A stretch of 64,000 nucleotides of DNA, from assembly GCA_029202445.1 (NCBI GenBank), contig CP119321.1:1054001-1118000 (forward strand). The letters are read 5' to 3'. Source of the stretch: Candidatus Microbacterium phytovorans. GTDB taxonomy: Bacteria; Actinomycetota; Actinomycetes; Actinomycetales; Microbacteriaceae. Position numbers and translations under genes: made by a program. Below, in pieces: positions 1,358-49,735 of the stretch. Position 1 is the first letter of the stretch. Every line of letters starts with the position of its first letter. The notes below the pieces were generated by a model, which did no database searches, was not told where the DNA came from, and was given only the letters and a program-made list of their open reading frames with translations.

Positions 1358-1408
1358 TCAGAACGAGGTCTCGCCGCGGCCGCTAAGGAGAAGGCGAGCG
1401 AACCGCAT
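1358..1408 (-). CDS. Candidate leucine leader peptide of the leuC transcript (16 aa)
   Basis: A short ORF reads [16 protein letters not shown], with three consecutive leucine codons (CTT, CTC, CTT), the kind of run used in leucine attenuation. A TAATCT -10-like hexamer ends six bases before its ATG, so the transcript may start at or next to the start codon (leaderless). Its stop is about 58 nt before leuC. Known: amino-acid biosynthetic operons are often controlled by leader peptides rich in the end product. Inference: this one tunes leuC(D). I did not resolve a convincing terminator/antiterminator pair, so control could instead act on ribosome access. Confidence 0.5.
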
Positions 1409-1410
1409 CG

Positions 1411-1420
1411 GGCCAGATTA
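1411..1420 (-). promoter_or_regulatory. Putative -10 region of the leuC transcript
   Basis: Minus-strand TAATCT ends six bases before the leader-peptide ATG at 1408, right after the terC stop codon. No clear TTGACA-like -35 box is visible; it would lie inside the end of terC. Seen in sequence; promoter activity is inferred. Confidence 0.4.
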
Positions 1421-1425
1421 CCACT

Positions 1426-2541
1426 TCACGATCGGCGGTCGTCCGTGCCGTCGGTCGACGGATCGACCACGGTCGACGGCGTTCCCTTCTCCTCCGCGAC
1501 CGTCTGCGCGGCGGCCACCGGTGTCGCATCGGACGTCGCGGCGCCGTCGGCGACGATCGCGCGGCGCTCTCGTGCCGATGCCGCGAGGCTCGCGAGGGTG
1601 GCGACGACCATCGCCACCACGATCACGCCGAGCGACATCCAGGTGGAGATCTCGGGCGCCCACTCGATGTGCTCCCCACCGTTGATGAACGGCAGCTCGT
1701 TGACGTGCATCGCATGGAAGACGAGTTTCACGCCGATGAAGGCGAGGATGAATGCGATGCCGTAGTGCAGGTAGCGCAGCCGATCGAGCAGGTCTCCCAG
1801 CAGGAAGTAGAGCTGGCGGAGGCCCATCAGCGCGAAGAGGTTCGCCGTGAAGACGATGAAGGGGCTCTGCGTGATGCCGAAGATGGCGGGGATGGAGTCG
1901 ATCGCGAAGAGCAGATCGGTCACACCGATGGCCGCGAACACGATGATCATCGGCGTCCACATCTTCTTCCCACCGACGACCGTGCGGATCTTGGCCCCGT
2001 CGTAGGAGTCGGAGATGTCGATCGTCCGGCGCAGCAGCCGGACGATGAAGTTCTCCCGCTGCACCTCGTCGTCGTGGTTGCCGCCAGGGAATGCCTGCCG
2101 CCACGCCGTCCAGACGAGGAACGCACCGAAGAGGTAGAACACCCAGCTGAACTGCTCGATGATGGCCGCGCCGGCGAGGATGAAGAGCCCGCGCAGGACG
2201 AGCGCGATGATGATGCCCACCATCAACACTTCCTGCTGATAGCGGCGGGGCACGGCGAACTGGCTCATGATCAGCACGAAGACGAACAGATTGTCGATCG
2301 ACAGGCTGTATTCCGTCAGCCAGCCCGCGACGAACTGCCCGGCGAACTCCCCGCCCGCGAAGATCCACATGAGTCCCGCGAAGATCAGCGCGAGCGTCAC
2401 GTAGAAGACCACCCACAGTGTCGACTCCCTCGTCGAGGGGATGTGCGGCCGCTTGAGGATGATCAGCAGGTCGGCAACCAGGATGAGAGTCAGCACGATC
2501 AACGAGCCGATCTCGAACCAAATGGGCAGATCGAGGTCCAT
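1426..2541 (-). CDS. TerC family integral membrane protein
   Basis: 371-residue polytopic membrane protein of the TerC family, linked to metal-ion homeostasis (tellurium resistance, Mn2+ export) in the cytoplasmic membrane. It starts MDLDLPIWFEIGSLIVLTL and has about nine hydrophobic segments with the family acidic residues in membrane helices (SIDNLFVFV, GVTDLLFAIDSIPAIF). The C-terminal ~60 residues are Ala/Thr-rich and hydrophilic, as is common in actinobacterial members. The ATG at 2541 is chosen over an upstream in-frame extension because the extension would read through the riboswitch-like leader. Probably a Mn2+ exporter given that leader. Confidence 0.9.
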   Translation of the reverse strand: MDLDLPIWFEIGSLIVLTLILVADLLIILKRPHIPSTRESTLWVVFYVTLALIFAGLMWIFAGGEFAGQFVAGWLTEYSLSIDNLFVFVLIMSQFAVPRRYQQEVLMVGIIIALVLRGLFILAGAAIIEQFSWVFYLFGAFLVWTAWRQAFPGGNHDDEVQRENFIVRLLRRTIDISDSYDGAKIRTVVGGKKMWTPMIIVFAAIGVTDLLFAIDSIPAIFGITQSPFIVFTANLFALMGLRQLYFLLGDLLDRLRYLHYGIAFILAFIGVKLVFHAMHVNELPFINGGEHIEWAPEISTWMSLGVIVVAMVVATLASLAASARERRAIVADGAATSDATPVAAAQTVAEEKGTPSTVVDPSTDGTDDRRS

Positions 2542-49335: not shown

Positions 49336-49354
49336 TTGTGGTGACAGTGAATCG

Positions 49355-49735
49355 TGGAGATGGGGGGAATCGAACCCCCGTCCATCGCTGAAAAGCGGCG
49401 TCTTCTCCGGGCGCAGTCTGTGAAGTTCGTTCTGCTCGGCCCCAACCCTTGGTCACAGACACCCGAGTTGACGAGCCCAGTCCGGGAAAAGTCCCACGCG
49501 ACGTCCGGACGCCGTCGCGCAGCAAGATCCCTTAGATGACGCCAGGGAACGTGACGGGATCAGTCACGCACTGACGGACTCGGGCTCGCTGCTCAGGCAG
49601 CGAGGGCGAAGTCGGACTGCTTCTTTTCGGCAGTTATTGTTTCGCAGAGATCGTTTACGAGATAACCCTGCATCCTCGGCCCGCTTCCCGCAGCAACGCA
49701 GGCGATGTCGAAACCGATCATCCCCGGAGCGCCGT
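49355..49735 (-). ncRNA. ssrA: tmRNA (transfer-messenger RNA)
   Basis: 381-nt minus-strand RNA that frees stalled ribosomes with SmpB and tags the peptide. The 5' end GGGGATGATCGGTTTCGACA pairs its GGGGATG with CATCTCC at the 3' end, and the T-arm reads GGGGGTTCGATTCCCCCC. The tag frame ends in QSDFALAA followed by TGA (stop at 49604-49606), the degradation tail typical of tmRNA. I could not fix the resume codon by eye. Confidence 0.95.

Follow-up and report, generated by a model that had tools for sequence, protein, structure and literature searches.

In the leuABCD leader of E. coli, Leu codons upstream of the leucine genes serve as the sensor, and the leader, which carries a Shine-Dalgarno sequence and a terminator/antiterminator pair, controls transcription. 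The LEU element described upstream of actinobacterial leuA comprises a leader with a Leu run, Leu codons that pair with the Shine-Dalgarno sequence, and a pseudoknot (Seliverstov et al. 2005, PMC1262725). The same authors doubted control by the leader peptide, because mutations in the leuA leader of S. coelicolor were inconsistent with classical attenuation, and proposed a binding protein; in its accessible main text, their report also mentions one LEU element inside a transposase gene and does not contain the word 'leaderless' (PMC1262725). The working of the element has been an open question since 2005, translation of the leader having then been judged unlikely. LeuL1, the leader of Streptomyces lividans leuA (MRFGLLLLSCRGEGL), has been reported to be leaderless and to have no typical terminator (PMC8079986). 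Leaderless polycysteine attenuators have also been cited for mycobacteria (Canestrari et al. 2020, in PMC13236596); these are likewise short ORFs with amino-acid-sensing codons that control a downstream operon, but they respond to cysteine and act on other genes.

We analyzed a window of 64,000 nucleotides from Candidatus Microbacterium phytovorans (contig CP119321.1, positions 1,054,001 to 1,118,000). All the features around leuC lie on the minus strand, which the preliminary description of the ORF and its promoter had left unstated. The leuC gene, for the large subunit of 3-isopropylmalate dehydratase (NCBIfam TIGR00170), occupies positions 1 to 1299 and extends beyond the window edge; it has its own GGAG site ahead of the ATG at 1299, and a LeuD-like ORF lies downstream of it in the genome. 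A distance of 58 nt separates the leuC ATG from the stop codon (1360-1358) of a 16-codon leader peptide ORF (1358 to 1408, ATG at 1408), which was read and translated from the DNA and is predicted to be leaderless. Here the window reads TGG TAATCT GGCCCG ATG CGG TTC GCT CGC CTT CTC CTT AGC GGC CGC GGC GAG ACC TCG TTC TGA. In other words, a TAATCT -10 element (1415 to 1420), with the TGG of an extended -10 just before it (1423-1421), is separated by a 6-nt gap (GGCCCG) from an ORF whose peptide contains LLL, encoded by CTT CTC CTT (1385 to 1393), the proposed sensor. This confirms the 16-residue ORF with three consecutive Leu codons behind TAATCT that had been described at 1358-1440, a stretch that contains both the ORF and the promoter. 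A co-oriented gene of the TerC/Alx family (1426 to 2712; NCBIfam TIGR03718) lies upstream, its stop codon 5 nt from the leader -10. The proposed Leu-codon sensor is shared with the E. coli leuABCD leader, which differs in its Shine-Dalgarno sequence, its terminator/antiterminator pair and its control of transcription. An Rfam scan of the window returned tRNAs and a tmRNA (gene at 49352-49725, minus strand) only, and no leader family.

A DNA search of the same genome revealed a 78%-identical stretch at 888552-888631, upstream of leuA, where TATCGT GTCACC ATG opens a leader encoding MRFGGLLLLSRRDETS; the preliminary description had overlooked both this homologue and the relationship with the LEU element. 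The covariance model R1 likewise recovered these two copies in the genome, with 96 and 80.5 bits. As in the LEU element, the leuC leader has a Leu-run ORF and Leu codons able to pair with a Shine-Dalgarno sequence, with a hairpin and a candidate pseudoknot between them; an intrinsic terminator was not found in the leuC leader and is not described for the LEU element in the accessible text (PMC1262725). Whereas the LEU element has been known upstream of leuA, the window copy precedes leuC and the other copy of the genome precedes leuA; location is not a structural criterion, and we treat the leuC copy as the same LEU element at a new location. LeuL1 resembles the leuA-type leaders of our analysis, such as VLFGLLLLSCRDES, but it precedes leuA in a different order, and no leuC leader appears in the leader table of that source (PMC8079986). 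Nothing relevant to a leader of leuC, leuCD or leuB, or to a leader in Microbacteriaceae, was found in the accessible parts of the open-access literature. What is new here is that a LEU element stands before leuC, within Microbacteriaceae, a family in which the IclR regulator of leuCD (NdgR/LtbR) was not found.

The leader ORF is well supported as a conserved element by these comparisons. The leuC leader region was matched in 196 of 198 genomes of the same genus, R1 matched 144 of 150 Microbacteriaceae genomes, and the longest Leu run was at least three in 157 of 159 family leaders. The Leu run is therefore kept in close relatives, where its absence had been proposed as a ground for rejecting the leader. 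Short Leu-containing ORFs are frequent in GC-rich DNA, and R1 itself gave one weak match elsewhere in the genome (L118, 28.9 bits, E = 0.0045), which we rejected as a chance hit; it lies where a gene begins whose N-terminus, as identified by eye, is pilin-like. However, the idea that the leuC leader is such a chance ORF without function is refuted by the conservation across the genus and many genera and by the homologue at leuA, and we regard it as practically negligible. The leader, its homology to the leuA leader and its taxonomic spread are thus established at the level of sequence comparison.

The spacing of the promoter was compared in 159 distinct leader regions (94 leuC and 65 leuA), obtained from 168 matches after removal of duplicate own-genome loci and identical contexts. 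The motif TAnnnT precedes the leader start by 6 nt in 133 regions, by 7 in 22 and by 5 in 2, and 2 regions lack it; this gives 157 of 159 at 5-7 nt, compared with 16 among 7242 control positions taken from these stretches (a background of 0.2%), although for ambiguous leader starts the candidate with a -10 was preferred. Some seed sequences were also chosen using the -10 as a criterion, while the search model starts at the start codon and contains no promoter. The start-choice bias is too small to account for 157 of 159 at a background of 0.2%. A TGn lies upstream of the hexamer in 88 of the 94 leuC leaders, which suggests an extended -10, and a sigma-70 promoter scan gave no match for a -35. 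A strict Shine-Dalgarno-like motif was found upstream of the leader in only 1 of 159 regions, and a looser motif set matched 2 of 159 leaders as against 142 of 159 main genes.

These distances fit those of leaderless genes in S. lividans, for which 5'-end data give a mean -10-to-start distance of 6.3 nt and a -10 in 93.4% of cases (PMC8079986). The leuC transcript is therefore predicted to begin with the A of ATG 1408 or an adjacent base, and we infer a leaderless start in Candidatus Microbacterium phytovorans. The earlier statement that there is no space for a ribosome-binding site and that the ORF starts at the predicted transcription start is supported. Because of this position and this lack of room, leaderless translation is the natural reading of the conserved Leu ORF. 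A leaderless attenuator leader has precedents in the S. lividans leuA leader, which is reported to be leaderless (PMC8079986), and in the polycysteine attenuators cited for mycobacteria. Another possibility is that the leader ORF is real but that the leuC message usually originates at a more distant upstream site, with readthrough from the TerC/Alx gene as one potential source, in which case the leader would rarely be leaderless and would have little effect. The orientation of that gene and its end 5 nt before the -10 would allow this. However, the -10 spacing and the extended -10 are conserved in the family, and a leader on a longer mRNA would have no ribosome-binding site; we consider this explanation very improbable.

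RNAalifold returned a single structure from 30 sequences, a 10-bp hairpin that we call P2. Its 5' arm (CCGCGGCGAG, 1370 to 1379) lies within the leader ORF directly past the Leu codons, and its 3' arm (CTCGTCGCGG, 1341 to 1350) lies beyond the stop codon. In 60 sequences, a set that also covers copies of leuA and leuB type belonging to other families and from which several mis-picked hairpins had been excluded beforehand, 99.7% of the 600 cells were paired, 3 pairs had changed on both sides, and 25 double-change cells were counted against 8.4 in shuffles. Together with the promoter spacing, P2 is established by the same kind of comparison as the leader itself and is well supported. Two further pairings were considered. 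P3, a pseudoknot candidate, consists in the window of 4 Watson-Crick base pairs between the loop strand GCCC (1354 to 1357) and the downstream strand GGGC (1327 to 1330). In P1, found in both the minimum free energy and the centroid fold, with P2 nested inside it, an anti-Shine-Dalgarno strand made up mainly of the Leu codons (CTCG CC TTCTCC, 1387 to 1398) faces GGAGAACGAG (1304 to 1313), which includes the leuC Shine-Dalgarno sequence GGAGAA (1313-1308); TTCTCC pairs with GGAGAA, and the pairing is extended by CTCG with CGAG. When matched partners were compared with swapped partners in 62 dereplicated leaders, the p-values were 0.0002 for P2, 0.02 for P3 and 0.04 for P1, all of which overstate the independence of leaders that are mutually related. 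Within a single gene class the swapped-partner test of P1 was not significant (leuC 0.064, leuA 0.21). The stability of the whole window transcript was not unusual compared with shuffles (z = -0.34).

P1 was also compared with synonymous recodings in which the Leu codons were redrawn from the coding-sequence mix. P1 became weaker after recoding: the real pairing was the stronger one in 72 of 94 leuC leaders (p = 3e-9) and in 46 of 65 leuA leaders (p = 0.006). The cost of opening the Shine-Dalgarno sequence in the free state was 5.86 kcal/mol for real and 4.28 kcal/mol for recoded leuC leaders, four Leucobacter rows with an uncertain main start being set aside, and 6.56 versus 5.25 kcal/mol for leuA leaders. 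A striking single case is that of Leifsonia (L017), in which CTCCTTAGC stands opposite GCTAAGGAG. The pairing of the Leu codons with the Shine-Dalgarno sequence is moderately supported by these results, as is the P3 pseudoknot by the partner comparison.

The codon choice bears on the same pairing. The three codons adjacent to the hairpin encode Leu in 159, 158 and 153 of the 159 leaders, while the outer codons are variable. The Leu codon nearest to the hairpin is CTT in 157 leaders and CTC in 2, and CTT makes up 308 of 624 Leu codons in the leaders versus 6 of 189 in the adjoining coding starts. CTG occupies only 8 of 477 slots at the three inner Leu positions, compared with 57 of the 76 listed at outer Leu positions. 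Therefore, the avoidance of CTG is limited to positions able to face the Shine-Dalgarno sequence, and it is there that pyrimidine-ending codons are kept. This usage is consistent with selection acting on the codons through the face that they present as RNA. The preference for CTT and CTC could also reflect the use of one isoacceptor tRNA, which would leave the choice of CTT over CTC nearest to the hairpin unexplained.

Based on these features, we propose, with a probability of roughly 65%, that a LEU element now controls leuC(D) by translational attenuation through leaderless translation of the leader. RNA polymerase would initiate at the leader's own start codon, so that the ribosome would have to enter at an exposed 5' end that has no Shine-Dalgarno sequence. 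When leucine is sufficient, the ribosome would pass CTT CTC CTT, halt in the P2 loop and depart; P2, probably together with P3, would then form, and the Leu codons would pair with the leuC Shine-Dalgarno sequence in P1, so that leuC would be translated only at a low level. If charged leucyl-tRNA ran short, the ribosome would stall on the Leu codons and mask both the anti-Shine-Dalgarno strand and the 5' arm of P2, so that leuCD would be translated. We infer both the stalling and the direction of regulation from the arrangement of these elements. When a ribosome was modelled at the Leu codons, the opening cost of the Shine-Dalgarno sequence fell from 5.86 to 3.76-3.89 kcal/mol in leuC leaders (n = 90, four Leucobacter rows with an uncertain main start being left out) and from 6.56 to 3.70-4.68 kcal/mol in leuA leaders (n = 65), in a model that excludes the pseudoknot. 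The effect on the window leuC itself was small (4.39 to 3.81 kcal/mol), and the leuA copy of the same genome showed no drop (5.04 to 5.17 or 5.00 kcal/mol).

A rival explanation is attenuation of transcription, in which the leader ribosome would decide between readthrough and premature termination. A leader peptide followed by a strong hairpin is indeed the classical arrangement, and in related orders ilvB leaders with intrinsic terminators have been reported (PMC1262725). However, no terminator-like site was found at 1250-1500, and the longest T-run between P2 and the main gene was 4 across the 159 leaders; with no intrinsic terminator found, termination would probably have to be Rho-dependent. 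The choice of Leu codons, moreover, favours pairing with the Shine-Dalgarno sequence. We regard transcription attenuation as unlikely and pairing with the leuC Shine-Dalgarno sequence as the better model; translational attenuation is therefore favoured on the basis of the modelled ribosome effect and the absence of a terminator-like site. The preliminary reading is thus supported in part: the conserved Leu ORF at the predicted start stands, whereas a leaderless attenuator leader has precedents and transcription attenuation has no visible support.

The distribution of the element suggests how it came to lie at leuC. Each of the 45 two-copy genomes examined has one copy at leuA and one at leuC, and in all 15 single-copy genomes examined the copy is at leuA. 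Because the single-copy genomes hold the leuA copy, this copy appears to be the ancestral one and the leuC copy a later gain. Applied to 80 named LeuC loci, R1 located the element ahead of leuC in 24 of 34 Microbacteriaceae and in 0 of 46 others, a split for which genera were assigned to the family in part from record titles. The element is present at leuC in Microbacterium, Agromyces, Leifsonia, Herbiconiux, Glaciibacter, Agreia, Leucobacter, Cryobacterium, Terrimesophilobacter, Rathayibacter and one MAG. The ten Microbacteriaceae leuC loci that lack it, among them those of Curtobacterium, Frigoribacterium, Agrococcus and Salinibacterium, are counted against translational attenuation. In Curtobacterium (L015, L020), a palindrome-like sequence, TTGGTATACCAA / TTGGTATACCAG, lies upstream of leuC and is possibly a repressor site. 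Outside Microbacteriaceae, the 33 R1 matches inspected comprised 28 at leuA, 5 of leuB type and 0 at leuC.

In Streptomyces, the IclR-family protein NdgR adjoins and regulates leuCD, and it also binds upstream of leuB (PMC4340878). We used as a query the IclR protein encoded divergently from Cellulomonas leuC (L052) and found a match of 63-90% identity in 52 of the 55 genomes that represent other families of the order, but in 0 of the 4 Microbacteriaceae of that sample. Among 60 Microbacteriaceae genomes, only 3 gave a match at E <= 1e-20, with 37-40% identity; neither in these genomes nor in that of Candidatus Microbacterium phytovorans was a match at ortholog-level identity found. Microbacteriaceae thus seem to lack NdgR and often carry a LEU element at leuC. 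This suggests that, in the family as a whole, an RNA leader took the place of a protein regulator (NdgR/LtbR) at leuCD, although this is one correlated event and not causal proof. Upstream of leuC in Micrococcaceae (L043, L049, L068, L070), we also observed a recurrent GTCTCA..ATCTGAG-like palindrome, a candidate NdgR/LtbR box.

Relatives of the element also occur at other leucine genes. In another family of the order (f18), second R1 copies precede a short ORF (MSEEAQKARQALQESMDLR...), leuB and ilvE. In these 24 regions (L285 of G487, L263, L265, L267, L269, L271 and L313-L330), the leader start lies 6-8 nt past TAnnnT in 23, and leuB was recognised inside the fetched stretch in 19. The leader peptides, such as MTRQVVLIAGRGEFQ and MTRQLVLLIASRGESR, are encoded with Val, Ile and Leu codons; no paper on leuB-ilvE leaders of this kind was found in the literature searched. 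Because Val/Ile/Leu codons occur at the leuB-ilvE operon and Leu codons at leuA and leuC, these sequences argue that the codons are the sensor.

This replacement of codons also bears on the proposal made in 2005 for leuA, namely that a regulatory protein binds the folded leader, in which the Leu run would act mainly as RNA structure. ML1624-like proteins were proposed for this role, and the non-classical behaviour of the S. coelicolor leuA leader mutations speaks for it (PMC1262725). In our 159 leaders, however, the distance from the start codon to P2 is 26, 29, 32, 35 or 38 nt, values that all equal 2 mod 3, so that the frame is preserved despite changes in length, and the stop codon lies within the P2 loop in all 159. 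The start codon also keeps its place at the predicted +1, and in the leuB-ilvE copies the Leu codons give way to Val/Ile/Leu codons. Since a pure protein site needs neither the frame, nor a start codon at +1, nor the codon swap, we consider this explanation distinctly unlikely. Returning to leaderless translational attenuation, we tentatively suggest a wider possibility, somewhat short of an even chance: a mobile, codon-matched LEU regulon may have spread by duplication from a leuA ancestor to leuC in Microbacteriaceae, replacing the lost NdgR/LtbR, and in another family of the order to leuB-ilvE, with a change of the sensor codons to Val/Ile/Leu, being leaderless throughout and with the sensor acting as the anti-Shine-Dalgarno strand. 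The many natural variants of the leuC copy and the codon-matched leuB-ilvE relatives offer tests of the control of a Shine-Dalgarno sequence by leaderless translation.

Two minor observations were made at related loci. Some genomes contain a further leuA gene with its own LEU element (L272 of G490; L275 and L276 of G513). In addition, the LeuC of Herbiconiux daphne (L018:859-2934, 691 aa) has an Ala-, Glu- and Asp-rich N-terminal extension of about 210 residues, which immediately follows the LEU element.
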